Virus record (IMG/VR): IMGVR_UViG_3300025889_000088
Coordinates: 1-64,000 of that record
DNA: 64,000 nucleotides
Direction: 5' to 3' (one strand)
DNA from: a virus
The notes below the pieces were generated by a model. It saw only the letters and a program-made list of their open reading frames with translations. It was not told the origin of the DNA and made no database searches. The number at the start of each line of letters is the position of its first letter. Positions within the stretch are counted from its first letter, which is position 1. Of the stretch, positions 1,914-48,181 are shown one piece after another. The position numbers were made by a program, and so were the translations under genes.

Positions 1914-2514
1914 TAATTAAAATGTCTGGATTTTCATCTGCTTCGGCTGTAACCCATTCCCATGCTTGGTCATCAAGTCTGCCGACAAGGATTTTGGTTT
2001 TGATTTCACCGCCGAGTTCACGATTGTAATGATAACCATCTTCCAATGGTTCTACATCTTTCCCTAAAATCTTGGAAGCGTATTTTGCTGAAATAGGTTT
2101 GGCTCCAAGTTCGTCAATAAGCATTTGCTCCATACGGTCAGAAACTTCGGCATACATACGACCTTGAGTGATATCTTCTCCTTTGATTTGGTAAACACCG
2201 TCTTTACCACGAAGGTCATCTTTATCTTTGCGATAGGTTCCAGTGGCTAATGCTTTGCGTCCCATATTGGTGAACTTATAAATGGATGCGGTAACAATCT
2301 CGCCATCTTTCCTGATAAGTTTCCAAATATTGTCTTTTTGAGCAAGTTTCTCAACTTCTCTACGCAAGTCTTCTCTATCGGCAAGGTTTTTGTAACCGCC
2401 AATCTTCGCATATGACTTATGTAGGATATCAGTAACCGTGTCAATATACGGTTCTTTATCTTCTGGTTTGAGTAGATTGACTACTCGTTCTATAAGGAAC
2501 TGCTTTGCTCTCAT
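1897..2514 (-). CDS. CTS-like N-terminus protein, GNAT-like core (205 aa)
   Basis: The function is not established. Residues 1-9, MRAKQFLIE, end in L-I-E and resemble the T4 capsid-targeting sequence removed by the prohead protease ([L/I]-x-E cleavage); the same start type recurs in the next two genes. The core (IVTASIYKF..., then a conserved KALATGT stretch and a YAEVSDRME helix) is reminiscent of acetyltransferase-like folds, but no acetyl-CoA loop can be proven. The C-terminal IKTKILVGRLDDQAW...DILIID looks like a beta strand pair. It is operonic with 2511-2969 (ATGA overlap). Confidence 0.65.
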   Translation of the reverse strand: MRAKQFLIERVVNLLKPEDKEPYIDTVTDILHKSYAKIGGYKNLADREDLRREVEKLAQKDNIWKLIRKDGEIVTASIYKFTNMGRKALATGTYRKDKDDLRGKDGVYQIKGEDITQGRMYAEVSDRMEQMLIDELGAKPISAKYASKILGKDVEPLEDGYHYNRELGGEIKTKILVGRLDDQAWEWVTAEADENPDILIIDKAA

Positions 2515-2969
2515 TCTTCACCCACCCACATTTTTTGTTTATATCCATCGGGCCAAAGTAACAACGACTGAATGGTTCTGTGCCATCCTTCTTGGAGTTC
2601 ATAACCTTCGTTATGCTTCGTTACAATGATTGGTTCATTTGACGGACCCCGTTTTTTTAGTAACTCCAACTGTGTGTTATGTCTTTCATCATCATTTTTA
2701 ACAAAGTTAAGGCGTTCCCCCTTCATCCTTGACATAAGCATCTGTTGTGTGTCTTTGTCAAAGAAAGACAAGGTAACTGTATGTGTCTGTAAGGACCATT
2801 TCAAATCATTCAAGTATAGCCCAAATTCAATATCAAATGATCCTGGTTCATCTTTGTAGTTTTTATACATAAAGTCCTGAACTACGTACTCTGGTACATT
2901 AGGATATTGTTGCTTGAAATAGTCAAGCATTGATTTTCTCACTTCTACAAGGAACTCTCTACTTCTCAT
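2511..2969 (-). CDS. CTS-like protein with ParB/Srx-like motif (152 aa)
   Basis: It begins MRSREFLVE (L-V-E), a possible capsid-targeting peptide. Near the C-terminus, PIIVTKHNEGYELQEGWHRT matches the pattern of ParB/sulfiredoxin-fold proteins (strand, then x-E-G-x-H-R-x). That motif binds nucleotide or phosphate in the fold. The remainder is unrecognised. ParB-like motifs recur in the 940-aa protein at 26216-29038. A role in the virion or early host takeover is inference from the N-terminus only. Confidence 0.6.
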   Translation of the reverse strand: MRSREFLVEVRKSMLDYFKQQYPNVPEYVVQDFMYKNYKDEPGSFDIEFGLYLNDLKWSLQTHTVTLSFFDKDTQQMLMSRMKGERLNFVKNDDERHNTQLELLKKRGPSNEPIIVTKHNEGYELQEGWHRTIQSLLLWPDGYKQKMWVGEE

Positions 2970-4672
2970 TACTTCATACCAAGTTCTTGTTGTAGATCGT
3001 ATAATCTCATATCAGAGAAATCTTCATAGGCGGCGTCTTCATCATAACCAGACCATCCGTAATATGGTTCCTCTACATTAACCTCGCTTGTTAGCCATCC
3101 GCCTTCATACTCAACTTCATCCATAAAGCCTTCATCGGATAGAAGGTCAATCATAATACTGTTATCGGCAACGAGTGAGATAGGTTCGCCAAAACGCCAT
3201 TCCCCACCAGTTTCATCACTCATTAGACGCAGACCGTTTTGTAGGTTTTCTGTTGTACTCTTGAATGCTTTCCACATTTCCTGTTCAGCGCCAGCCTCAA
3301 TCCCACGTAGGATAGCGTATTCGGCAGCAGTCTTGATTTCGTCAAGTTCATTCTCATTGATAAACTCGTAGAAGTCATATACATCTTCTGGTGAAACCTG
3401 TATACGGTCAGGGTCAGTCTTGGCGATATGTTGAATAACTTCTTTTACTTCGCCTTTTAGCTTATCATTCATACCATTGAAAAAATCTTCAAGATGATAG
3501 CTTGTATCTGAACCCCACATATCAAGTGTATCGTTACCATTGAAGTATTTTATATAGTGGTCCATATTGCCGTTTGTTGTTTCACAGAACTGCTCGATAT
3601 CTTTCCAATGGTCAAGTTGATGAACTTTATTCTTTTCATCATAACCATAGTATCTAACACCATTATCCTCTAATGCTTCAAGTTTAGCAGAGATTGCTTT
3701 GGTAACTTCATCACTATCTTTGCCGAACTTTTTAGCAAGGTCTTTGACTGTTCCGAGGGATGGTTTCTTATCAATCAACTTTTCGCGGGTTTCTTCATCT
3801 AAGTCACTTAGTGAAAAGTTATTCTCTGGTGCGTATCCGCCGCCCTTGATACCTTTTACCATTTCATGCTCTAATAGTTTGATGATATATGGGTGATATT
3901 TTGGCTTTGGTTTCTCGTTTGCTCTACCCTTCATTTCTCCAAGATAACCATTCTTATCAATGATGAATGTAAGGTGAGGACGGTATAATCCGTTTGGTAG
4001 TTTTGTTCTTAGGGATAGGATGGTTGTGCCGTCATAGTCTCTCCAACCAACATTACCACAGTGCCCCATAGCATTTGCTTCATCACTGCACCCGCCTCGT
4101 GGTAGATGCCACCAAGCAAGGTTCTCGTTGAACTTGATGATAGGTTTATCGCCTTCCTGTGGCTCAAGTGTGCCTTCTCGTTCTTCTTTCCATTCGTTTT
4201 CATAGTCGTTGAATACATTGACTAACTCTTGGAATGTTTCATTGCCGAATGTATGTTGTTGGATTTTTGGGATTGGTAGAGAAAGTGAGTGTTCAAGCTG
4301 TGAACGCAAGAAGTTGATTTGCGGTACAGCCGCATTTGGTTTCATTTTCTTACGGGTTTTCTGGCTTTCTTTTTGTAGAGCGTCAAGAATAGGCTTTATT
4401 TGTTCACTCTTCTTTGCAGCGTCAGCGGCTGTTGGACCGGACGCTTGTAACTGTGCCTTGTTGATCATTAGGTCAATAATAGAAAGTTTCACATAGCGAA
4501 GGAACCATACTATTCTATCATTCTTTTGTAGGGTTCGCTTTGCCCAAGAAATATTTGGATTGGTCATGGCCCGAATATCATCGTCGTTACCCATTTCCTG
4601 ACCGATCTTTCTTAGACCGTCAAACATAGCCTCATAGTTCTGTGCTTCAAGTAAAAACTCTTTTGCTCTCAT
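2969..4672 (-). CDS. CTS-like protein with PcfJ-like core (567 aa)
   Basis: A large protein starting MRAKEFLLE (L-L-E, possible T4-type capsid-targeting cleavage site). Around residues 187-290 it carries a conserved block: WWHLPRGGC, AMGHCGN (Cys205), ILSLR, a P-x-LTFI strand, GEMKGRANEKP and YHPYI. The GHC...SLR...P-x-x-T...KGR-x-N pattern is reminiscent of the PcfJ-like family core. The same block occurs in the 631-aa protein at 55629-57524, so the two are paralogues. The C-terminal half is acidic and unrecognised. The ATG is preceded by a hairpin containing its AGAGGA ribosome site. Confidence 0.75.
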   Translation of the reverse strand: MRAKEFLLEAQNYEAMFDGLRKIGQEMGNDDDIRAMTNPNISWAKRTLQKNDRIVWFLRYVKLSIIDLMINKAQLQASGPTAADAAKKSEQIKPILDALQKESQKTRKKMKPNAAVPQINFLRSQLEHSLSLPIPKIQQHTFGNETFQELVNVFNDYENEWKEEREGTLEPQEGDKPIIKFNENLAWWHLPRGGCSDEANAMGHCGNVGWRDYDGTTILSLRTKLPNGLYRPHLTFIIDKNGYLGEMKGRANEKPKPKYHPYIIKLLEHEMVKGIKGGGYAPENNFSLSDLDEETREKLIDKKPSLGTVKDLAKKFGKDSDEVTKAISAKLEALEDNGVRYYGYDEKNKVHQLDHWKDIEQFCETTNGNMDHYIKYFNGNDTLDMWGSDTSYHLEDFFNGMNDKLKGEVKEVIQHIAKTDPDRIQVSPEDVYDFYEFINENELDEIKTAAEYAILRGIEAGAEQEMWKAFKSTTENLQNGLRLMSDETGGEWRFGEPISLVADNSIMIDLLSDEGFMDEVEYEGGWLTSEVNVEEPYYGWSGYDEDAAYEDFSDMRLYDLQQELGMK

Positions 4673-4679
4673 AAAAAAA

Positions 4680-4703
4680 TCCTCTGCTGTATTTAGCGGA
4701 GGA
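4680..4703 (-). promoter_or_regulatory. hairpin holding the ribosome site of the 567-aa gene
   Basis: Read on the minus strand, TCCTCCGC - TAAATACA - GCAGAGGA forms an 8-bp stem (one mismatch) and is followed by seven T residues and ATG 4672. The 3' arm contains AGAGGA, the only plausible Shine-Dalgarno sequence, so it would be paired. The loop TAAATACA also resembles a late-promoter octamer. Confidence 0.4.
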
Positions 4704-6938: not shown

Positions 6939-7808
6939 TTATTCAAAGAAATCTTCAAAATTAATGATATTTTTTGATGGATTGAAAAGAAGAATCTCTA
7001 AGGCTTTCTTCGCTTCAAATCCTTCTTCGGTTTTCTTGCGCCGACCAGCAGTGTAAGTGATATCAAATGTTTTCATCATGGCGTTGCGGTTGTCAAAAAA
7101 ACCATCGCCAGCGTCACGATTACACAACCAAACATCTTTGTTTTTCTCAACAATATCGATAACTTTCTCAAGTTCACTATCTGGAAATGCTTGGTTATAA
7201 TCAGCGAAACTATCTCTGTATGGTGGATCGTAGAATGTGAAATCGGATACTGGAACGGCAGACCAATCTCCGCAGGTTATCACTACATTCTTATTGGTTA
7301 GTATTGTATGCCACGTTTCCAACACATCAAGATCATACACAGAATCTTTTTGGTTCAACAGACCGCAAGGTGTTCCATAACGGTTATTGGTATTCTGGTT
7401 GATTTGCCAGATACCATTAAATCCTGTCTTCATCAGAAAGTATAGGGTTGCCGCTTCTTCCGGCATAGACCATTTCTGATAATGGTATGCGTGTTCGTTA
7501 CGAAGACCGTAGTAGTATTTCTTGCGGTCTTCTTTGGATAGCGGAATGTACTTTTCTTGATACCTATCCAGAGTTTTCTTGAACAGATCATAGTCGTTCT
7601 TTATAGCCAGATAGATATTGATAAGTGGCTGATTGATATCGTTAATGTAACTGGTTGTCGGATTATATTTCTCCATAACGTGAAGAAACATAGCGCCACC
7701 ACCAAAGAACGGTTCGGAATATGTTTTAGCAGTTTCGGGGAAGTAAGGCTGGTAGTTTTTCAACATCTTGTTCTTACCACCAGCCCAAATGTATAACGGT
7801 TTAGTCAT
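6939..7808 (-). CDS. dam: DNA adenine methyltransferase, Dam/D12 class
   Basis: N6-adenine DNA methyltransferase of the D12 (Dam-like) class. The AdoMet-binding motif SEPFFGGGAMF is at residues 31-41, the N-terminal LYIWAGGKNKML matches the usual GGK turn, and the catalytic motif D-P-P-Y is at 194-197. Length (289 aa) is normal for the family. Recognition sequence cannot be read. Upstream lies a possible restriction-like nuclease (7844-8707). Alternatives are an orphan methylase that protects phage DNA from host enzymes, or the modification half of a pair. Confidence 0.9.
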   Translation of the reverse strand: MTKPLYIWAGGKNKMLKNYQPYFPETAKTYSEPFFGGGAMFLHVMEKYNPTTSYINDINQPLINIYLAIKNDYDLFKKTLDRYQEKYIPLSKEDRKKYYYGLRNEHAYHYQKWSMPEEAATLYFLMKTGFNGIWQINQNTNNRYGTPCGLLNQKDSVYDLDVLETWHTILTNKNVVITCGDWSAVPVSDFTFYDPPYRDSFADYNQAFPDSELEKVIDIVEKNKDVWLCNRDAGDGFFDNRNAMMKTFDITYTAGRRKKTEEGFEAKKALEILLFNPSKNIINFEDFFE

Positions 7809-7813
7809 ATACT

Positions 7814-7842
7814 ATTATACTATTTTCCTTTTTATGTTGCAA
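7814..7842 (-). promoter_or_regulatory. probable promoter of the Dam gene
   Basis: Minus strand: TTGCAA (7837-7842), 17 bp, TATAAT (7814-7819), then 5 nt to the ATG. The -10 is perfect and the -35 matches 4 of 6. There is almost no leader, and no clear Shine-Dalgarno sequence precedes ATG 7808. Confidence 0.5.
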
Positions 7843-7843
7843 C

Positions 7844-8707
7844 TTAAATCACAACATTGACATAACCATCTGCGATAGCTTGTGTATCACGCCCACGGCG
7901 CATCACAGGGCTAAACTTCAAGTTAAGATCGTCAACATCATCAACATTAGCGATATTAACAACAATACGCTTGTCACCGTTGATATACATAATGTTGTTC
8001 CAACCGTCTACCTCTTTGTACTCACGCAAGGCAAACTTGCCAAGTGCAGTGTTGAAAGCGATAGGATCAGAATAGACTTTTTCAACTTCGTCAGAAAGCG
8101 ATTCAACATCACAGCCGACATACAGTTCTTTGAAGTAGTCACGATACTTGGAAGGATCGGTAACAGAAGCAATATGTTCTTCAAAAAGCTTATGGCTACG
8201 CTTACCAGGAACAGTGCCGTTCCAATACTTGGCGTTAAGGCGATCAATAAGACCCTTTTCAGTCTCACCAGTTTTCACAGGCTTGAGGCTTGCGCCGTCT
8301 TTTTTGATTTCAACCTTTTTGTTATCGTCGCCAAACTCCCCATCGGAAGTGTTGGAAAAACGATAGTTAGAAAGAATAAGAGGCAATGCAAGTTCGCCAG
8401 CCCCAACACCTTTGCCGTTGTTACTCAACAGAATGCCAAACAGCTTCATGAAAATCGTATCCGTTTTCAGCACAGGGCTGATCAGATCATCGATCTTGCA
8501 ACGAAAGTTTGTGTTGAGTATATCACTATCGGTGAGGTTACTGTCATCTTCAAGTATTGCGATTGTTTTCTCTGCACTGCCATAGCCAAGTGCTTCGAAG
8601 TAGATAAGATAAGCCTTGAAATCACTCACAAAACGATCTGCGGCAACGTGACCGCAGATACCTCGTTTGATAAGTAGTTCATCGGCTCTGTTTAAAAGTT
8701 CTTTCAT
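7844..8707 (-). CDS. putative PD-(D/E)xK nuclease (287 aa)
   Basis: Residues 100-140 read G-V-G-A-G-E105, a loop with D127/D128, then V-E133-I-K135-K and DGASLKP. A glycine-rich turn with Glu, an Asp, and E-x-K is the active-site layout of PD-(D/E)xK nucleases, and similar G-x-G-E...E-x-K blocks occur in phage proteins. The rest is helical and unrecognised. It is adjacent to and upstream of the Dam-like methylase, on the same strand but with its own promoter. The nuclease call is an inference from the motif; no assay-level evidence is visible. Confidence 0.55.
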   Translation of the reverse strand: MKELLNRADELLIKRGICGHVAADRFVSDFKAYLIYFEALGYGSAEKTIAILEDDSNLTDSDILNTNFRCKIDDLISPVLKTDTIFMKLFGILLSNNGKGVGAGELALPLILSNYRFSNTSDGEFGDDNKKVEIKKDGASLKPVKTGETEKGLIDRLNAKYWNGTVPGKRSHKLFEEHIASVTDPSKYRDYFKELYVGCDVESLSDEVEKVYSDPIAFNTALGKFALREYKEVDGWNNIMYINGDKRIVVNIANVDDVDDLNLKFSPVMRRGRDTQAIADGYVNVVI

Positions 8708-8755: not shown

Positions 8756-8784
8756 ATTATATAGTATTATCTTTTGTATATCAA
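8756..8784 (-). promoter_or_regulatory. sigma70-like promoter
   Basis: Minus strand: TTGATA (8779-8784), 17 bp, TATAAT (8756-8761). The TGA stop of the 8781-9053 gene lies inside the -35 box. It drives the putative nuclease gene; an AGAGGAG ribosome site follows. Confidence 0.7.
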
Positions 8785-12919: not shown

Positions 12920-13942
12920 TCACTTTCCCATCATATCTTTTACTAGTGCTGAGAAATCATATTCACGTTTCCAGCCAAGCTTTTGTTCTGCTTTGGTTGG
13001 GTCACCAATCAGCAAGTCAACTTCTGCTGGACGATAATACTTTGGATTGACTTTTACTAAAACCTCACCAGACTGTGAACGTCCAACTTCGTCAACACCT
13101 TCGCCTTCCCAAGTAATATCAATATCAATATGCCTGAAAGCGACCTCAACAAACTCACGGACAGTCCGTGTTTCGCCAGTAGCCAATACATAATCGCCTG
13201 GTTTGTCTTGTTGGAGCATAAGCCACATACCATTCACATAATCTTTGGCGTGACCCCAATCTCGTTGAGCATTCATATTACCAAGCTCAAGGGTAGGTAC
13301 GTTCTTCTCATTTCCTACCAATGAGTTTTGCTGATAATCAACAACATGATTGGTGATCTTCTTGGTGACGAAGTTATCACCGCGCCTTGGACTTTCGTGG
13401 TTGAATAGAATACCATTACACCCGAATAGGTTGTATGACTCAATGTAGTTTCTCACAGCCCAAAACGCATATAGCTTGGATACACCATATGGAGAACGTG
13501 GATGGAAAGGTGTTTCTTCGTTCTGCGGAACTGCTTTCACTTCACCATATAGCTCACTGGTTGATGCCTGATAAAACTTGGTTGTCTCAAACATATTCAA
13601 GTGGCGCATACCTTCAAGGATACGCATCGTTCCCAGCGCATTGATATCACAAGTCTGTACTGGAATATCAAATGAGATACGCACGTGAGATTGTGCGGCA
13701 AGATTGTAAATCTCATCTGGGCGTGTTAGTTTTAAGATACCCTCAATAGCAGAACCATCAGTCAAATCTCCCCAATGAAGATTTAGTCTTTCGTGTCCTA
13801 ACAGATGTTTGATATTCTCTGTGTTTTCTGTTGCTGAACGGCGTCTAATACCGTGAACGGTATAACCCTTATCTAGTAATAGTTCTGTTAGGTAGCTTCC
13901 GTCCTGACCAGAAATCCCGGACACCAGGGCTGTCTTACTCAT
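12920..13942 (-). CDS. gmd: GDP-mannose 4,6-dehydratase
   Basis: Converts GDP-mannose to GDP-4-keto-6-deoxymannose, the precursor of GDP-fucose, rhamnose and related sugars. It is an extended SDR fold: NAD(P)-binding G9-I-S-G-Q-D-G15, catalytic S-T-S-E at 127-130 and Y152-x-x-x-K156. At 340 aa it has full family length. The start is set at ATG 13942 because it shares ATGA with the methyltransferase stop and has TGGAG just upstream. No GDP-fucose synthase or reductase is in the window, so the product probably enters host or other phage enzymes. Confidence 0.92.
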   Translation of the reverse strand: MSKTALVSGISGQDGSYLTELLLDKGYTVHGIRRRSATENTENIKHLLGHERLNLHWGDLTDGSAIEGILKLTRPDEIYNLAAQSHVRISFDIPVQTCDINALGTMRILEGMRHLNMFETTKFYQASTSELYGEVKAVPQNEETPFHPRSPYGVSKLYAFWAVRNYIESYNLFGCNGILFNHESPRRGDNFVTKKITNHVVDYQQNSLVGNEKNVPTLELGNMNAQRDWGHAKDYVNGMWLMLQQDKPGDYVLATGETRTVREFVEVAFRHIDIDITWEGEGVDEVGRSQSGEVLVKVNPKYYRPAEVDLLIGDPTKAEQKLGWKREYDFSALVKDMMGK

Positions 13943-15096
13943 TTTTTTCTCCATATCCAAATAGGTTCCGCAAAAGGATTATTCATATCTTTTAGGAACT
14001 CTGAGTTGGGACGCTTACGCATTTCGTATCCCCAACATCCTTCGTATTGTGCGCCATCCAGTGTCGCAATAAAGTCGTTCATCATATCACAACTGCGTAG
14101 GCTATCGTCATACTGCCGTGTAGCATAGGCATCGCTGATATTTACCATCATCACACCACCCTTCTCTAAATGTTCCCAGCATTTGTTTAGGGTCACACAT
14201 AGAAAGTCATTCATCCACGCATCAAACTTCTTATACCTTTTCCACGATTGTGTATCGTCAGTGTTATATCGTTCTGAATCAAAGTATGGTGGGGATGTGA
14301 ATACTGTATCAAACTTACCATCAAGTTCTACCTCTTCGGCGCAACCGTGATGAATGAATGATGTTTTATCGTCACCCTCAATCTCAAATAGACTATTACC
14401 GCCAAGGAAACTGTTCCACTCTGTGTATGCTTCTGCCTGTTTGATATACCCAGGATGAACATTATCGTTGGGATCAATGCCCGTGTATGTCTTCGCTTTG
14501 GAAGCATAGAAACCACATAACCTATCTCCCCATCCTGAACTGAAATCTAATACATTCTCTGATTGGAAATGATTGTAAATAGCCTTTGCTGAACTTGGAC
14601 GAAACTGTGCGGCAATATACTTACGAAGACCGATAATGGTTCGCAATACATCCCTATTCACTTCTTCACATTTCATACTCCATAAAGCATTGAGTAGGGT
14701 ATCACGGATTTTATGAATATACCAAGAACGATGAGGACTTGGATATTTGCGGTGACCGCACATCCATCGTGCTTCTTGCTGAAAGTAATCAGATGCTTTG
14801 TTGCCTACGTTCAGTGACTTTACCAACATATCGTCTTTATGGTATTTGTAGTCGTAGCGTGTATCAAACGGTGACTTGATAATGATATCTTCGTCGCTGA
14901 AATCACATAGTAACTGAAAGTCTTTCATCGCATCTTGTTCTGAAATATTACGCATAGGCATAGGTATTTCATACTCATCGATAGCATCTGAAATAAGTTG
15001 TTTTACTTCCTCTTGTGTGTGTGTTTCGTTTAGTTGTTTCCACTCATACTTTGGAATGAGGATTTCGCCATTACGGACAATATCACTTGTTTTCAT
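13939..15096 (-). CDS. DNA methyltransferase-like protein (385 aa)
   Basis: A SAM-dependent methyltransferase with AdoMet motif VLDFSSGWGDR (182-192) and the amino-MTase motif S-P-P-Y (268-271) in TVFTSPPYFDSERY, followed by GGVMMVNISD. S/N-P-P-Y is typical of N4-cytosine and N6-adenine DNA methylases, so a base-amino target is likely. The start is placed at 15096, where ATGA overlaps the upstream stop. It lies between gmd and the sugar nucleotidyltransferase fusion, so a non-DNA substrate cannot be excluded. Confidence 0.75.
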   Translation of the reverse strand: MKTSDIVRNGEILIPKYEWKQLNETHTQEEVKQLISDAIDEYEIPMPMRNISEQDAMKDFQLLCDFSDEDIIIKSPFDTRYDYKYHKDDMLVKSLNVGNKASDYFQQEARWMCGHRKYPSPHRSWYIHKIRDTLLNALWSMKCEEVNRDVLRTIIGLRKYIAAQFRPSSAKAIYNHFQSENVLDFSSGWGDRLCGFYASKAKTYTGIDPNDNVHPGYIKQAEAYTEWNSFLGGNSLFEIEGDDKTSFIHHGCAEEVELDGKFDTVFTSPPYFDSERYNTDDTQSWKRYKKFDAWMNDFLCVTLNKCWEHLEKGGVMMVNISDAYATRQYDDSLRSCDMMNDFIATLDGAQYEGCWGYEMRKRPNSEFLKDMNNPFAEPIWIWRKK

Positions 15097-15863
15097 TCGC
15101 TCTGAATATCCTCTTCTACGCATTCTTCGCCGTACTGGATTTCATAGATTACCAGATTATCGGTGCGGCTATCGTTGATAAGTTGATGCCAACTGTCTTT
15201 CGTAATACGAAGATAATCATGTTTGCGTAGTGTTTTGATATTATCGCTTTGGTGAGTAGGTCTGCTGTCTTGGTCGTTGAGGATTACTTTGCCATAACCA
15301 TTTGCTACGAACCATAACTCATCACGCTTGGCATGCTTTTGGTAACTAAGGCAACCGCCGGGGGTTACCACGAGTTTCTTCATCTTGGCATCGGTAAACT
15401 CATCGTCAAGAACTTCCCAGTATCCCCACCGAGTTTCTTTGTGTTCTTTTTCCCATTTTTTTAGAATCCAAGACGAACTGTTCTTCTTATCTTCGCCGCC
15501 GACACCAAATACAAACTCAATACCTTCAACAGACATTTCGGGTATATTTTCATTGGTTCTGTCGCCACCGTTAGCAAAGATAATATCGTGTTCTGGATTA
15601 TCCAGTTTGATATTTTGTAGTAGGTCACAGGCAGAACCATCATCATCGTTGAAACCAAATACTGCATCAACGCATTTGAGGTTGTTTATGATTTCGGTGC
15701 GTTCTGTTAAAGGCATAAACTCTCTACCTTTCTTGCGCCGTAACCAATCATCGCTGTTCACACCAACATACAGTAAGTCTCCTAAAAGACTAGCCGCATT
15801 TAGGTAAGCGATGTGTCCACTGTGAATAGGATCGAATCCGCCCGAAACCACTACAATCTTCAT
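15093..15863 (-). CDS. cytidylyltransferase-cupin (type II PMI C-terminal-like) fusion
   Basis: The N-terminal half is a nucleotidyltransferase of the cytidylyltransferase/HldE-like fold: V-S-G-G-F-D-P-I-H-S-G-H with H-x-G-H at 14-17, GVNSDDW and the LTERTEIINNL helix. The C-terminal half (from about 145) matches the cupin of type II mannose-6-phosphate isomerase/ManC: GYWEVLDD, VTPGGCLSYQKHAKRDELWFV and a final IYEIQYGEECVEEDI. The fusion is unusual and suggests a sugar-phosphate activating enzyme coupled to gmd. The exact substrate is unknown. Confidence 0.8.
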   Translation of the reverse strand: MKIVVVSGGFDPIHSGHIAYLNAASLLGDLLYVGVNSDDWLRRKKGREFMPLTERTEIINNLKCVDAVFGFNDDDGSACDLLQNIKLDNPEHDIIFANGGDRTNENIPEMSVEGIEFVFGVGGEDKKNSSSWILKKWEKEHKETRWGYWEVLDDEFTDAKMKKLVVTPGGCLSYQKHAKRDELWFVANGYGKVILNDQDSRPTHQSDNIKTLRKHDYLRITKDSWHQLINDSRTDNLVIYEIQYGEECVEEDIQSE

Positions 15864-41670: not shown

Positions 41671-42726
41671 TCATTCAACCAGTTCTGGTTTGTATACGCT
41701 GCTCAATCCAAGAGCTTTTTTGTTGAAATCAATCAATGTTTTCAACGCATCTTCTGTGATAAATGTCATTAGTGTATCACGGTGCTTGTTTCCTTCTTCA
41801 CCAATAATCCATTCATATTGTCCAACTTTCTTTTGGATAGCAGCAATACTCTTTGGGTCATTAGCCATATCAGTCAATGCCTGACGTAGTTTCGCTAGAT
41901 TTGGGTTACCTTTACGTACCCACAACGCTTTCTGTAAACCATCGCGGAAAGATTTAACAAGCTTATACGCATCATACAATGAACCAGATGGTTCGGAACC
42001 GTATGTTTCTTTAAATAAGATTTCCATTTGAAACCCTGGATAGTTAGGATCATCACTATGGGTGCCTGTCGCTGGATTTAGGATACCATGATGAAACCAC
42101 ACTTCACTATCGCCAGTATCAATACTTGGCTGTACGTGCTTTTTAAATGCTGCTGGATTTTCCCGTGTGCCATTTAGTTCACCACGCTTATATGCTAGGC
42201 GGCGTTGACCACCAGACATACCGTGAACCCAAGTAACATTATCCTTGAAGCATTGGACATATTCAGCAGTTGTTTTTCCACCGCCGCATAATAGTAGTGT
42301 CATAGCAATACCTTCTGGAACCATACCGGAGCCAGCGGCAAACTTTACTTTCTCGCCTTTCACATATTTTGTCTTATGACCCACAATGATGTTAAGGTTC
42401 ATTAACCCAACACTATCGTAGTCAGCATAGTTATAATCTACTTTCTCTTGAAGGAAAGAAACACCATTACCACCATGGGAAACCATGACAGTCTTATCGT
42501 CGTGTTGCAGTTCATTGTGGAACTTATTAAACCCTGGAATGTCTCTTGCTCCAGGAATATGTTTCAATACAATCCTTTCTCCAAGTTTCTTTTCGAGTTC
42601 AGCAGCAACAATTTGTGCCCAAACACTGGTGCCGCCGCCTGGTTTTTGTGGAATGACAAATGTATAATCTGCCAATACGGGTGTAGCGAATAAAGCAATA
42701 AATGCTACTAATAGTAATTTACGCAT
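41671..42726 (-). CDS. tctC: TctC/Bug-type periplasmic substrate-binding protein
   Basis: Periplasmic binding protein of a tripartite tricarboxylate transporter. A signal peptide, MRKLLLVAFIALFATPVLA, cuts before DY. The mature start FVIPQKPGGGTSVWAQIVAA matches the P-x-x-P-G-G-x-x-D/V-x-x-A-R/Q family opening, followed by the substrate-lobe pattern. Length (351 aa) fits the family. It overlaps the TctA-like gene by 8 nt, so they form one transport unit. The ligand cannot be predicted. Confidence 0.8.
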   Translation of the reverse strand: MRKLLLVAFIALFATPVLADYTFVIPQKPGGGTSVWAQIVAAELEKKLGERIVLKHIPGARDIPGFNKFHNELQHDDKTVMVSHGGNGVSFLQEKVDYNYADYDSVGLMNLNIIVGHKTKYVKGEKVKFAAGSGMVPEGIAMTLLLCGGGKTTAEYVQCFKDNVTWVHGMSGGQRRLAYKRGELNGTRENPAAFKKHVQPSIDTGDSEVWFHHGILNPATGTHSDDPNYPGFQMEILFKETYGSEPSGSLYDAYKLVKSFRDGLQKALWVRKGNPNLAKLRQALTDMANDPKSIAAIQKKVGQYEWIIGEEGNKHRDTLMTFITEDALKTLIDFNKKALGLSSVYKPELVE

Positions 42727-44143
42727 AGTTTGTTTTTCCTTTCATAATGCTATAAATGAATGTAATAATAGTCAAAGTAATAAGAGCAATAAAAAGATAT
42801 CTGTCGCCCAACATATCCCAGTTATATATGGTGAATAACTGTATGGATAAATTTTCTACTTTGTCTGCTAAGATGAATGCGACCAAGAATGCTGGTCTAC
42901 TGTATTTATAAGACTTCATCGTAAAACCAAGTACACTAAAGATGCCTAATACAACCAAGTCTTCCCAACCACCCGTATATTGCATACTTGCCCAAACAAT
43001 CATCGCAAGCAATAAGGGGAAATAATATACATACGGTACAGATGTAATCTTGCATACCAGATTTACGAATAATAACGAAAAGATACCAACAAATAATGTT
43101 GCTGTAAGGAAACCAATACTCAGACTTTGGAAGAACTTATCATCATACATCAAATCTGGTGATCCAAGATCGAAACCCATATATAAGAATAGTCCCATTA
43201 GAACTGCGGCAAATGGTGCGCCAGGGATACCAAATATAACGGTTGGAAGCATACTGGTTGCTTTCTGTGCGTTGTTGCTACCCTCTGGACCAATCACGCC
43301 CTTGATATTACCATTACCAAACTGTTCATTCTTATTCAACGCAACGGTCTGACCGTATGCCAACCAATCGCTAACTGCCCCGCCAAGTCCAGGTAATAGG
43401 CCAACAATCGCACCAATAAATCCGCCTCGCAACGATAGCCAACGATTCTGCCATACCGCTCGCATACCTTCTATGCGCTCGCTCCTAACAACATGACTCG
43501 TTGCCTGTCGTTTTTTGAAACCTTCAATCAACTCTGGTACAGCAAATAATCCAGCAACAACTGGAATAAGTTGGATACCATCTTGTAGATAAAACCATCC
43601 AGCCGTAAAACGTGGGTCATTTGTAGTCGGGTCAACACCAACCAACCCAACGAATATACCAGCCCCAATCGCTACAATACTTCGGACAGGTTTATCGGTT
43701 GACAAAAACCCAACTGTAGCCAACGCTAGAACAGTAAATGCCCATAGCTCTGGTATACCAAAGAATAGCACAAGTTCGGTATAGTATGGTAAGAATAGGA
43801 ATACGATGCCGCCCCATAGCAATCCATTCACCGTTGAGGTTGTTACTGCTGCTGATATGGCATATGATGCTCTACCCTGTTGAGCAAGCGGGAAACCGTC
43901 TACCATCGTTGCTGCTGAACTGTTAGCACCAGGAATACCAAGTAATATACTTGTGAAGCTATCTGCTGTGGTGGATGCTGCTACCACTGCCATTAGGAAT
44001 ATGACACCAGCATATGGGTCAGCAATAAACACAGGCAAAACTGCGTATGTTGCTACTAGTCCTGTAGTTGCTCCTGCTGCTGGTATAATACCAATCACCA
44101 GCCCATATAGGATGCCAGCGATTAGTGCTGTTATTTCTATCAT
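42719..44143 (-). CDS. tctA: TctA-type transporter membrane subunit
   Basis: Large membrane subunit of a tripartite tricarboxylate transporter (474 aa; 10-12 hydrophobic segments). Family signatures: GILYGLVIGIIPAAGATTGL near the N-terminus, SILLGIPGANSSAATMVDG, GAIVGLLPGLGGAVSDWLAY and PTVIFGIPGAPFAAVLMG; the repeated G-I-P-G motifs mark TctA. No TctB-like 4-TM gene is adjacent, so the phage version would borrow the host subunit or work without it. A rare type of gene for a phage; part of a late unit with the sulfotransferase-like gene. Confidence 0.88.
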   Translation of the reverse strand: MIEITALIAGILYGLVIGIIPAAGATTGLVATYAVLPVFIADPYAGVIFLMAVVAASTTADSFTSILLGIPGANSSAATMVDGFPLAQQGRASYAISAAVTTSTVNGLLWGGIVFLFLPYYTELVLFFGIPELWAFTVLALATVGFLSTDKPVRSIVAIGAGIFVGLVGVDPTTNDPRFTAGWFYLQDGIQLIPVVAGLFAVPELIEGFKKRQATSHVVRSERIEGMRAVWQNRWLSLRGGFIGAIVGLLPGLGGAVSDWLAYGQTVALNKNEQFGNGNIKGVIGPEGSNNAQKATSMLPTVIFGIPGAPFAAVLMGLFLYMGFDLGSPDLMYDDKFFQSLSIGFLTATLFVGIFSLLFVNLVCKITSVPYVYYFPLLLAMIVWASMQYTGGWEDLVVLGIFSVLGFTMKSYKYSRPAFLVAFILADKVENLSIQLFTIYNWDMLGDRYLFIALITLTIITFIYSIMKGKTNYA

Positions 44144-44667: not shown

Positions 44668-44680
44668 CTAAATATTTATA
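44668..44680. promoter_or_regulatory. bidirectional late promoter element
   Basis: CTAAATATTTATA contains the palindrome TAAATATTTA. Minus strand: TATAAATA at 44673-44680, 5 nt before ATG 44667. Plus strand: CTAAATA at 44668-44674, 5 nt before ATG 44680. The two start codons are separated by only 12 nt and neither has a Shine-Dalgarno sequence. Confidence 0.65.
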
Positions 44681-45201
44681 TGCGTACATTACTTAAAGAA
44701 TATTTCTCCACAACCTGGCTTGAACGTGATCGATCTTTAGATCAGTATACGTACACTGGATGGGCATTATTGGATAAGATCGGACCACATGAAAATGTGT
44801 TGGATGTTGGTTGTGGTACAAACCCTTTTAAGCCATATCTTGGTGATCGTGTTTATGGTATCGATATTACAGACGTAGGTGCTGACGAGGTTGTAGCGAT
44901 TGAAGACTTCTATACCACTAATAAGTTTGATGTTGCGTTTTGTTTAGGGTCAATAAATTTTGGTAACCAAGATACTATCAATAACCAACTAGATAAAATC
45001 GACAAGTGCTTGAACAGTGGTAGGATTTACTGGCGTTGTAATCCCGGGAGATATGATCACGGAAACGACCACTTCAATAATATAGATGTATTTGATTGGG
45101 ACGAAGGGAAATTATATATGTTCGCTGATATGTACGGATACGAGGTTGCAGATATGCAGAAAGACGGGAATCGTATATATTCGGAATGGATTAAAATATG
45201 A
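44680..45201 (+). CDS. SAM-dependent methyltransferase (173 aa)
   Basis: A class I methyltransferase with AdoMet-binding motif N-V-L-D-V-G-C-G-T-N-P-F and an acidic strand VYGIDITD. Short (173 aa) but apparently complete. Plus-strand gene without Shine-Dalgarno; the ATG lies 5 nt after a late-type octamer. Followed by the 289-aa gene with a 4-nt overlap. Target unknown. Confidence 0.75.
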   Translation: MRTLLKEYFSTTWLERDRSLDQYTYTGWALLDKIGPHENVLDVGCGTNPFKPYLGDRVYGIDITDVGADEVVAIEDFYTTNKFDVAFCLGSINFGNQDTINNQLDKIDKCLNSGRIYWRCNPGRYDHGNDHFNNIDVFDWDEGKLYMFADMYGYEVADMQKDGNRIYSEWIKI

Positions 45202-46067
45202 TTGTACCCATTATATTTCCAGGAGGATGCCAAGGAACTTTCTTACAGTACATACTTGACACTTACAGTACAATTGGGGTTAATAAAAACAGAGACTTTT
45301 TATCTGTTGGTGGTAGCGCCCATAACTATCAAGGTTCTACTGCAAAGTCCTGTCAGGATTTCGTTACTAGTCACAAGTATGCAGCATCGCCTTTTATTAA
45401 GACTCATCCGAAAAGCGATCCTAATGATAGCATTGAAGAAAATATAAAACTTCTTTTAGAATATGCAGATAAAGTAGTATACGTGTACCCATTCGCAGAA
45501 GATACACATATTATTGTGTTGAATAACTTATTTTCTAAACTAGACATGACGTTTGAGAGATACCTTAAAAGAAATAACATTGACGTACAAAGTAAGATTT
45601 ATAATCCATGGGGAATTTCGTATAGTGTAGAAGTAAATGACATCGACAGGTGGGTGCAGCGTGAATTTTTAAGTCTATATATGTTTGACTCGTTCATTGA
45701 TGAGATTGAATATCATAACAAGGATATCTTTATGAATATGGATGGTGTCGTTTGCATAGACTACTCGTGGGTGTTAAATGACTTTAATAAAGTTATGTCT
45801 AGTTTATCCAAAATCGTAACATTCAACGATTACGATCACATATGCAACGATTATAACCTAATGCTCGATCACCAAGAACATATTAACAAATATAATATGA
45901 TACAGAGATATATTAATGGGGATGGTACATTGGTTAATCCGTCAGTCATTGACGAAGCGTATATACAGCACAATTTGCGAAAGTCTGGATATGAAATTAA
46001 ATGCGATGGTTTAAACGAGTTTCCTACCTTGATGAAAGATTTAGTGCCCCTTTTATCCAGTATATAA
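45198..46067 (+). CDS. unknown P-loop-like protein (289 aa)
   Basis: The N-terminal VPIIFPGGCQGTFLQYIL resembles a phosphate/PAPS-binding turn; together with FIKTHP and the DSFIDEIEY region it suggests a divergent sulfotransferase-like fold. Aromatic and Asn-rich. The evidence is weak and no catalytic residue can be named. The TAA stop lies inside TATAAATTTATA, an element upstream of phoH. Confidence 0.45.
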   Translation: MIVPIIFPGGCQGTFLQYILDTYSTIGVNKNRDFLSVGGSAHNYQGSTAKSCQDFVTSHKYAASPFIKTHPKSDPNDSIEENIKLLLEYADKVVYVYPFAEDTHIIVLNNLFSKLDMTFERYLKRNNIDVQSKIYNPWGISYSVEVNDIDRWVQREFLSLYMFDSFIDEIEYHNKDIFMNMDGVVCIDYSWVLNDFNKVMSSLSKIVTFNDYDHICNDYNLMLDHQEHINKYNMIQRYINGDGTLVNPSVIDEAYIQHNLRKSGYEIKCDGLNEFPTLMKDLVPLLSSI

Positions 46068-46115
46068 ATTTATAATATACCAACATCTAAAAAAAAGTTT
46101 AGAAGTAAATACAAT

Positions 46116-46172
46116 GTGAGCCGAGGTAGACACGGTTCGCAATAAAAGCATAGAGTGTTTACCTTCGCTCAC
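46116..46172 (+). promoter_or_regulatory. long stem-loop in the phoH 5' leader
   Basis: Arms 46116-46133 and 46155-46172 pair at 17 of 18 positions (two of them G-U) around a 21-nt loop. The ribosome site GGAGAAGG (46183-46190) and ATG 46197 follow 10-24 nt downstream. The leader has no other gene; a smaller TCTAAA/TTTAGA hairpin lies at about 46086-46103. Possible regulatory RNA element or mRNA stabiliser. Confidence 0.6.
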
Positions 46173-46196
46173 CATATAAAATGGAGAAGGAAACAT

Positions 46197-46925
46197 ATGT
46201 CCAGAAAACAACGTGCTATGAAGCGTGAAAGAAAAGATAACACAATTCAATTCAACGAATATGTGCAGAGAAAGCAAAATGTTCAACTAATTCCAAGGTC
46301 ATTAAATCAAGAAGAATATATTGACCACCTACTAAATCCAGAAAAACTTATGGTATTTGCAACAGGCCCAGCGGGTACTGGTAAAACCATGTTGGCCGTT
46401 TTGGCAGCACTAAAAGCATTCAAACAAGGAGATATAGAAAAGATTATTGTAACACGCCCAGCCGTTGGTGTGGATGATGAAAAACACGGCTTCCTTCCAG
46501 GTGACCTAAATGCTAAAATGGAACCTTGGACCAAACCTATCTTTGATGTGATGGAAGAATATTATTCACCAAAGACTATTAAGCAATACCTAGAAGAAGG
46601 TGTTATTGAGATTTCACCGCTTGCGTTCATGAGGGGGCGCACGTTCAAGAAAGCCTTCATTATTGCTGATGAAATGCAAAACGCTACACCGAATCAAATG
46701 AAGATGCTACTAACCCGTTTGGGTGAAGGTAGCCAGATGGTTATCACTGGTGATATTAAACAAGCAGACCGCAAAGATAAGGATAATGGTCTTCTAGACT
46801 TTAAACAACTATTGGCTAAGTTCAAGAACAGCGAATACATCGCTCTAACTGAGTTTATCAATCAGGATATTGAACGACACCCAGCAGTCAAAGAAGTACT
46901 TGACATTTATGGTGATGTAGCCTGA
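46197..46925 (+). CDS. phoH: PhoH-like ATPase
   Basis: A P-loop NTPase of the PhoH family (242 aa). Walker A G-P-A-G-T-G-K-T at 57-64 and a Walker B-type IIADEMQNATPNQMK are visible, followed by GDIKQADRKD, matching the family. The start was chosen at ATG 46197 because GGAGAAGG lies 6 nt upstream; the GTG at 46155 lies in the hairpin arm. PhoH is widespread in marine viruses; its role is unclear (phosphate stress or RNA metabolism proposed). The stop overlaps the convergent GT-like gene by 19 nt. Confidence 0.93.
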   Translation: MSRKQRAMKRERKDNTIQFNEYVQRKQNVQLIPRSLNQEEYIDHLLNPEKLMVFATGPAGTGKTMLAVLAALKAFKQGDIEKIIVTRPAVGVDDEKHGFLPGDLNAKMEPWTKPIFDVMEEYYSPKTIKQYLEEGVIEISPLAFMRGRTFKKAFIIADEMQNATPNQMKMLLTRLGEGSQMVITGDIKQADRKDKDNGLLDFKQLLAKFKNSEYIALTEFINQDIERHPAVKEVLDIYGDVA

Positions 46926-48181
46926 TAATTATCTTGTAATTGTTCTAGAAACTCTGAAATCATCTTATCTTTATATGATTTCAGAGTTTTGTAATTATGA
47001 TCTAATACCTCGTTAATATCACCACAAGCATCAAACCACAGTTTTCTTTCTGACGGAGATTTTTTAGCAAGTTTTTTTAGTACATAAATGACAAATTCTA
47101 TTTTCCGATTATCATCATAATAATCGTAATCTTCGTTCCACCACTTATCAAATGTTCTAAATCCCATATCACGTAATTTTGCTAAACTGCCATTATCACC
47201 AATTATGAAAAATGGTTTCTTATGTAATATTGCCTTCCATGTCTTTTCCGTGATATAACACACATTACCTTCAAGATGTGTTTCGCACGATATATAGATG
47301 AACGTATCATCTAATAGTTCTTTTTCGGTGTGAATTATTAAATTATTATCAAAAGAATAATGATGATTTACCTTGCCATCTAATTTTAATGGAAGAAGTT
47401 TAGTAAATTCAACATCATAATCACCGAGCGTTTCTTTTAAACTCACATTTCCATATTCTAATAAATCGTTTTTCCATAATTGATACACCATTTCACTTCT
47501 ATGTTTCTTTGGTATTCCATAATTCAAACAAGAATAGAGTTTTGTTGTTTTTACGTCAATGGGTGAATCAATGGATGGATTATAGTAATTGCACAAGTCA
47601 CTATATTGGTTAATAAACGAATCATACATATAAAAGTTAAAATTATTTGATACCCCCATCGTCTTTAGTTTGTGTATATTTTCATTTATCATGGGTTTAT
47701 ATAATGGCGATGCGTAATGAAAATGTTTTGTTGGTATATTGTATTTGTTCAAATGGCATTCTATTAACCCAATAGGGGTATGTTCATAAAAGTTTCTTAC
47801 ATCATGCCTTGGCACTCCAACATAATCTAAATTAAAAATATTAAATTCTTCCAGACCCAATAATACTAATATCTGGATTTCACCTGTTTGTAAGTAAGAT
47901 ATTATGTCTTTATTATCTATATAATCCAATATATTGAAGTCAGCATGAAAAGCAATATAAGGATCACGGATTTGAAATATATAAAAAAAAGAATCCTCTG
48001 GTGTTTTAGTCAAGGATAGATATTCTTGAAATGAAATAATATTTATCAGGTCTTCTATGTATTCATCACCGTGGGCAGAAAACGGATGATAACGATTAGG
48101 ATTATTGATATATTCAAGCCATTTCTTCTCTAAGCTATATCCATTTAATTTATCTTTATGTTCACGAATAAAATAAATCAT
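46907..48181 (-). CDS. glycosyltransferase-like protein (424 aa), copy 2
   Basis: C-terminal block: YITEKTWKAILHKKPFFIIG, NGSLAKLRDMGFRTFDKWW and NEDYDYYDDNRKI. It is the same as in 29850-31064 and the fragment 51113-51403. The N-terminal two thirds are AT-rich, Asn/Tyr-rich and unrecognised. Asn/Ile-rich composition differs from the neighbouring replication genes, so recent acquisition is possible. Confidence 0.6.
   Translation of the reverse strand: MIYFIREHKDKLNGYSLEKKWLEYINNPNRYHPFSAHGDEYIEDLINIISFQEYLSLTKTPEDSFFYIFQIRDPYIAFHADFNILDYIDNKDIISYLQTGEIQILVLLGLEEFNIFNLDYVGVPRHDVRNFYEHTPIGLIECHLNKYNIPTKHFHYASPLYKPMINENIHKLKTMGVSNNFNFYMYDSFINQYSDLCNYYNPSIDSPIDVKTTKLYSCLNYGIPKKHRSEMVYQLWKNDLLEYGNVSLKETLGDYDVEFTKLLPLKLDGKVNHHYSFDNNLIIHTEKELLDDTFIYISCETHLEGNVCYITEKTWKAILHKKPFFIIGDNGSLAKLRDMGFRTFDKWWNEDYDYYDDNRKIEFVIYVLKKLAKKSPSERKLWFDACGDINEVLDHNYKTLKSYKDKMISEFLEQLQDNYQATSP

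Follow-up and report, generated by a model that had tools for sequence, protein, structure and literature searches.

A nuclease-like gene and a methylase gene on the minus strand

The window analysed here, a stretch of 64,000 nucleotides, belongs to a 94,519-bp virus record (IMGVR_UViG_3300025889_000088) and is a piece of a marine giant phage. Its phage DNA polymerase is nearest to those of the jumbo phages Phosso (45%) and Atu_ph07 (44%), so that the record probably covers only part of a larger, myovirus-like genome. Both open reading frames picked out by an earlier note, a possible nuclease gene (NUC) and a Dam-like methylase gene (DAM), are present on the minus strand (Table 1), with DAM downstream of NUC at a spacing of 35 bp. 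The separate promoter that was claimed for each gene could not be established, as the window contains 7 sigma70-like matches against 5.1 ± 2.4 in shuffles, i.e., no excess, and the weak match in the intergenic gap stops 5 bases short of the methylase ATG. A second putative DNA methylase lies about 5 kb from the pair (13939-15123; Eco57I and N6_N4_Mtase profiles, E about 1e-6). Elsewhere in the window, a TctA-family tricarboxylate transporter permease (42719-44143; PF01970, E=4e-94) provides an example of a transporter gene in a phage, adjoined by a gene (41671-42726) whose product resembles a TctC-type binding protein by eye and has no Pfam match.

Table 1. Features of the NUC-DAM locus, in window coordinates.
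Feature	Position	Strand	Basis
NUC, 287 aa, putative PD-(D/E)xK restriction endonuclease of an unnamed family	7844-8707	-	invariant residues, AlphaFold2 model
Putative catalytic stretch of NUC, E105 to K135	8303-8395	-	residues invariant in 11 of 11 clusters
NUC E105	8393-8395	-	
NUC D122	8342-8344	-	
NUC E133	8309-8311	-	
NUC K135	8303-8305	-	
DAM, 289 aa, D12/Dam-family adenine-N6 DNA methyltransferase	6939-7808	-	PF02086, TIGR00571, DpnM 2dpm
DPPY catalytic motif of DAM, residues 194-197	7218-7229	-	sequence and alignment
Target-recognition region of DAM, residues 122-165, FNGI(W/Y/F)Q...TPxGLxNQ	7314-7445	-	alignment
Sigma70-like promoter match upstream of NUC, TTGATA-17-TATAAT, 11/12	8756-8784	-	matches in window not above shuffles
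Weak sigma70-like promoter match between NUC and DAM, within the 35-bp gap, 10/12	7814-7842	-	

Scans of IMG/VR identified NUC in 27 phage records, window record included and one contig with an identical NUC (L001) left out, which form 11 divergent clusters at 90% identity, all from uncultured phages; the NUC of the window shares 45-75% identity with those of the other ten. The protein carries the motifs G98-x3-G-x-G-E105, S121-D122-G123 and V132-E133-I134-K135-K136. Since none of the 11 clusters deviates at E105, D122, E133 or K135, the layout of glycine, acidic and lysine residues that had been read from the single protein is real and not due to chance; among the cluster representatives, position 134 is I or L and G104 is replaced once by A. 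In one record (L078, about position 4683) NUC is split over two frames, by either a frameshift or an assembly error. No useful family match was obtained in Pfam, PHROGs, NCBIfam or PADLOC, and no usable sequence match in the PDB; tblastn searches of 50,697 phage and 72,556 plasmid records gave no match, and the GTDB genomes scanned contained no relative.

An AlphaFold2 model of NUC (pLDDT 81.8, pTM 0.77; alignment of 5 sequences) places E133-I-K135 within a predicted strand (residues 130-136), which together with a conserved acidic residue is the hallmark of PD-(D/E)xK nucleases. Foldseek returned no match at E<=0.001, and in a VIA-align comparison confined to the 275 chains from Foldseek, 10 reached Z>=2; the eight entries listed comprise six Type II restriction enzymes and two fragments of Lon protease. 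The top match is HhaI (Z 4.9 over 139 residues, below the trust level of the tool), and the other scores are all low (MspI 3.8, PvuII 3.1 and 2.6, HinP1I 3.0 and 2.8). A PD-(D/E)xK fold is thus putative for NUC, the low Z values supporting it without proving it. The nuclease assignment made earlier is supported by the invariant acidic residues and the ExK in a strand, while the match to a known fold is weak; the comparison with profiles and predicted structures that had been proposed as a check yielded the resemblance to HhaI and neither a profile match nor a significant Foldseek match.

The assignment of the second gene to the N6-adenine methylases with a D-P-P-Y motif is confirmed by matches to PF02086 (E=2e-27), to TIGR00571 'dam' (125.8 bits, above the cut-off of 114.85), to PHROG 56 'DNA methyltransferase' (E=8e-50) and to the PADLOC profile MTase_II (E=1e-41), the nearest solved chain being DpnM (2dpm, E=2.5e-21). 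The recognition loop FNGI(W/Y/F)Q is present in 18 of 18 aligned methylases of the same type, DAM of the window included and the divergent methylase of Synechococcus phage S-CREM2 set apart, and has Gln at the position where DpnM and T4 Dam carry Arg. In Dam enzymes this Arg position (and the residue before WAGGK) reads guanine; a literature search on Dam residue numbers gave nothing relevant to the recognition position. Of the traits of GATC-specific Dam methylases, DAM shows the match to the family profile but not the Arg, which is replaced by Gln.

Conservation of the gene pair and exchange of the nuclease partner

In 10 of the 11 NUC lineages a DAM-type gene follows NUC in the same orientation, so that separate nuclease-type and methylase genes are kept together, a trait of Type II restriction-modification systems. 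The gap between the two genes ranges from -4 to +219 bp in nine lineages (that of L075, printed as -7, starts one codon ahead of its ATG); the tenth, L046, has an EcoRI-like gene between NUC and the methylase. The remaining lineage (L005, in the 236,751-bp record G001) has NUC alone, with a methylase 47% identical to DAM about 89 kb away. Within 4 kb on each side of the window pair, no gene has a match in the surroundings of the pair in the nine other lineages that were compared. Both flanks are common to L019 and L065, and a few other lineages share one flank. Beside the pair of L009, a C5-cytosine methylase followed by a TET/JBP-like oxygenase (2484-4650; PF12851, E=2e-10) lies just upstream and may possibly add a cytosine modification. 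ParB-like genes, recognised from weak profile matches, are found next to the pair in L007 (4846-5925) and next to the methylase in S-RIM2 (L036, 2946-3989).

The same type of methylase is also found behind a gene with an EcoRI-like motif, both in searches started from DAM (L049-L051, L052-L054 and L056) and in searches started from the EcoRI-like protein P0001 (L026 and L027). Among isolates, the EcoRI-like gene overlaps the methylase by 4 bp in S-BM1 and is separated from it by one ParB-like gene in S-RIM2; both cultured phages are annotated as having a 'DNA adenine methylase plus hypothetical protein'. In S-CREM2 the depositors labelled the homologue 'restriction endonuclease EcoRI', the methylase lies three genes on, and a Cas9-like virion protein and a SAM hydrolase virion protein are annotated beside them (L080, 799-7275). 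The accessible portion of the S-CREM2 paper places the methylase under nucleotide metabolism and does not discuss a restriction pair. Homologues of the EcoRI-like protein are present in 65 phage records, all of them Synechococcus phages.

The motif of these proteins consists of P-D-G-G, (E)-x-K-x-Q and (G)-N-A-x-(E)-R. Five sequences show no change at P, D, the second G, K, Q, N-A or R, but one of them lacks the E of ExK. We take PDGG...ExK...GNAxER to be the signature that EcoRI, MunI and RsrI share and that goes with an AATT core; a literature search for it gave no match. The Pfam family EcoRI (PF02963) does not match the EcoRI-like proteins of three records or three further proteins, PDB sequence searches gave no match, and the AlphaFold2 model of P0001 reaches a pLDDT of 35 only; the proteins are consequently named by their motif and the depositors' label alone. 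Among characterised enzymes, LraI, EcoRI and RsrI cut G/AATTC and MunI recognises CAATTG, according to the portion of the source available (PMC5896346). Taken together, the Gln in place of Arg and the EcoRI-like partner suggest AATT as the target of DAM.

NUC and the EcoRI-like proteins are unrelated in sequence and occupy the same place upstream of the methylase. Because methylases of this type stand behind an EcoRI-motif gene in other phages, the presumed nuclease partner of the methylase is exchangeable. L010 and L012 each carry an EcoRI-like gene, then the initial 30 bases of a methylase gene, then NUC and a full-length methylase, whereas L009, from another sample, lacks the EcoRI-like insert. 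A repeated leader occurs around the NUC start (L010 3351-4873, L012 382-1904, L009 4960-5921) and, together with the remnant of the methylase start, brackets the EcoRI-like gene in L010 and L012. This arrangement looks like recombination between NUC and EcoRI-like versions, i.e., a trace of exchange.

Depletion of AATT in carrier genomes

AATT was compared with a maximal-order Markov expectation on both strands, with one entry per NUC cluster and with only part of the long records counted (30-50 kb of the isolates; 60-80 kb of G001, G003 and G010). Strong depletion, defined as a ratio below 0.4 after the values had been seen, characterises seven NUC lineages: the window phage (0.26), G001 (0.24), G003 (0.22) and G017 (0.18), joined by G015 (0.28), G013 (0.32) and G014 (0.23). 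Four lineages are not strongly depleted, namely L075/G018 (0.61), L009 (0.72), the L002 cluster (0.77) and L039 (0.78), the last three ratios coming from 4.8-9 kb only. G013 represents the L065 cluster, whose members G012, G019 and G020 gave 0.26-0.27, and L003 represents the L002 cluster, L002 itself giving 0.92. The EcoRI-like carriers are divided in the same manner, with depletion in G011 (0.16), S-BM1 (0.22) and S-RIM2 (0.23) and no strong depletion in G010 (0.81), L026 (0.82) and S-CREM2 (0.78, with its divergent methylase). Overall, 10 of 17 NUC or EcoRI-like entries are strongly depleted, the near relatives S-BM1 and S-RIM2 making up two of the six EcoRI-like ones. Same-type methylases lacking an adjacent partner gave 0.98 (G016) and 0.71 (L040).

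By comparison, 17 phage sets without the system range from 0.68 to 1.02. They comprise 13 isolates, whose entire genomes were searched with the NUC and EcoRI-like profiles (0.68-0.99), and four IMG/VR contigs from relatives of the window phage by polymerase (54-59% identical), in which no system was detected (0.92-1.02). These contigs may be fragments, so that a system missing from them may still exist in the virus. Strong depletion thus occurs in 7 of 11 NUC lineages and in none of these 17 sets (Fisher p=0.0003; the sets are interrelated and mostly fragments). The EcoRI-like partners had raised the suspicion of AATT, but the first count already listed every palindrome, so its choice is partly after the fact. 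In a contrast of 8 NUC lineages with 9 controls, AATT ranks first of 136 4-mer classes (median 0.25 vs 0.91, t-like -9.3; next class -5.4) and is the only 4-mer with a strong and consistent difference. AATT is depleted in each of its ten flank contexts (0.11-0.36 in a pool of seven NUC lineages that excludes G018), and a 4-bp site hence fits better than GAATTC or CAATTG. When proteins and codon use were held fixed by synonymous-codon shuffles, AATT remained at 0.16-0.18 (z -29 to -31) in G000, G001 and G014 and at 0.17 in S-RIM2, versus 0.87 in S-PM2 and 1.02 in Atu_ph07.

In the window phage itself (window 1-64000 together with L082 and L083) most palindromes are low by the Markov measure: 15 of the 16 four-base palindromes fall below 0.72 of expectation, the lowest including CGCG (0.24), GGCC (0.25), CATG (0.32) and TTAA (0.38), and AATT ranks third. 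The bias is weaker in the polymerase relative L124 (lowest TGCA, 0.50). A general palindrome bias was considered as the explanation and holds in part for the window phage; the only word that sets carriers apart from controls is AATT, however, and the polymerase relatives show no AATT bias. GATC was likewise considered as the site; it is low in the window phage (0.44), G003 (0.41) and G015 (0.00) but near expectation in most carriers (0.83-1.08 in the others counted); in T4, which is annotated as methylating GATC, it is the rarest palindrome (0.35). Within the window, 28 of the 75 AATT sites fall in 44680-48181 (ratio 0.83, versus 0.16 in the rest), a region including a gene with a GC content of 0.29 (46907-48181), which may consist of recently acquired genes not yet purged of AATT.

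As far as the available part of their report indicates, Rusinov and colleagues found the sites of orthodox Type II systems to be avoided in about half of the cases studied, with recently acquired systems often lacking avoidance (PMC4687349). The depletion in 7 of 11 lineages and the recombination in the L009 group fit this pattern; the four lineages that retain AATT may instead use a different site.

A candidate phage-borne restriction-modification module

With the pair kept together, the nuclease exchanged and AATT purged in many carriers, the restriction-modification-like pairing suggested in the earlier note is well supported, and NUC and DAM probably represent a phage-borne orthodox Type II system, in which NUC would be a nuclease family that has no name. 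AATT is favoured as the site of the pair, if with some reserve. DAM would methylate the adenine of AATT in the replicating DNA of the phage, and NUC would cut unmethylated AATT through a PD-(D/E)xK metal site, either in the host chromosome, freeing nucleotides, or in the DNA of co-infecting phages, or in both. Since an AT-rich host chromosome would be full of AATT sites, cleavage would lead to decay of host DNA or to exclusion of other phages, and self-damage would be lowered by methylation of the few AATT that remain and by the purge of the others.

Three other readings have to be weighed. The methylase could serve as protection against restriction, with AATT purged because hosts or competitors cut it and with NUC being some other DNA enzyme (e.g., of recombination, or resolvase-like) that is merely adjacent. 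Site avoidance is indeed a known anti-restriction strategy of phages, as stated in the part of that survey consulted (PMC4687349), same-type methylases without a NUC or EcoRI-like neighbour exist (L040 and L042), and NUC bears no sequence resemblance to known restriction endonucleases. However, NUC accompanies the methylase in all but one of the 11 lineages, mostly in different surroundings, EcoRI-like proteins replace it at the same place, the contig with an orphan methylase (G016) has no AATT depletion and neither have the four polymerase relatives without a detected system, all of which makes this reading quite unlikely. Also unlikely is a restriction-modification system with another site, such as GATC or a longer word, and an AATT loss of different cause. 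It would agree with the Dam-family profile TIGR00571, with DpnM as nearest solved chain, with the four NUC lineages that keep AATT and with the low GATC of the window phage and G003, but it has to account for the near-expected GATC of the other carriers counted except G015, for AATT being alone among 4-mers in its contrast, and for the Gln in all 18 methylases aligned.

A selfish addiction cassette, persisting by killing hosts or phages that lose it and having no role in infection, would be consistent with a mobile two-gene unit, partner exchange and mosaic junctions, whereas the prolonged loss of AATT from many carriers points to a long stay in these genomes; it appears distinctly improbable as the explanation, and it is not exclusive of a Type II pair that acts during infection.

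On the favoured reading as a Type II pair, the evidence could be combined into a broader picture that we put forward tentatively and about which we are close to undecided: an exchangeable AATT-specific restriction-modification module common to marine T4-like and jumbo phages, with a methylase reading AATT instead of GATC (Arg to Gln) and at least two unrelated isoschizomer endonucleases (the NUC family and the EcoRI-like proteins), which would shred AT-rich host chromosomes or rivals in phages purged of about three quarters of their own AATT.

Among known systems, the closest in organisation are those of the DpnII/MboI kind, orthodox Type II systems with a Dam-like methylase, which likewise have an adjacent, separate nuclease of about 290 aa and a D12-class N6-adenine methylase; NUC differs from them in matching no Pfam profile, DAM in its Gln at the Arg position of DpnM and T4 Dam, and the unit in residing in phage genomes. 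HhaI, HinP1I, MspI and PvuII, the best structural resemblances of the NUC model, have the D-x10-E-x-K spacing in common with it, but at 7-11% identity, low Z and no profile match. The EcoRI-motif proteins of S-BM1 and S-RIM2, and of S-CREM2 with its divergent methylase, share with NUC the place upstream of the methylase and, in the first two, the depletion of AATT in the genome, but are unrelated to NUC and have no Pfam EcoRI match. The Chlorella viruses provide a precedent for a lytic virus with its own nuclease and methylase (CviAI and CviAII), proposed to degrade host DNA; they resemble NUC/DAM in this respect and differ in being algal viruses with other recognition sites. In the portion available of a jumbo-phage survey, phage-encoded restriction-modification systems are mentioned, and Mom-REase fusions are proposed to modify the phage's own adenines, with the attached nuclease attacking host or superinfecting DNA (PMC7824862); these involve momylation and fused domains, as opposed to predicted methylation and two separate genes. 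Phage-borne restriction is itself therefore not a new idea. A literature search by title and start of abstract found no description of the NUC-DAM pair or of AATT avoidance in such phages, which is weak evidence of novelty.

If the proposed reading is true, what is annotated in S-BM1 and S-RIM2 as a methylase and a hypothetical protein would become complete restriction systems carried as viral weapons, an unnamed nuclease family would be gained with its cutting site predicted ahead of biochemistry, and a strong genome-wide word bias would find its cause. The cultured cyanophages make the key tests directly possible.
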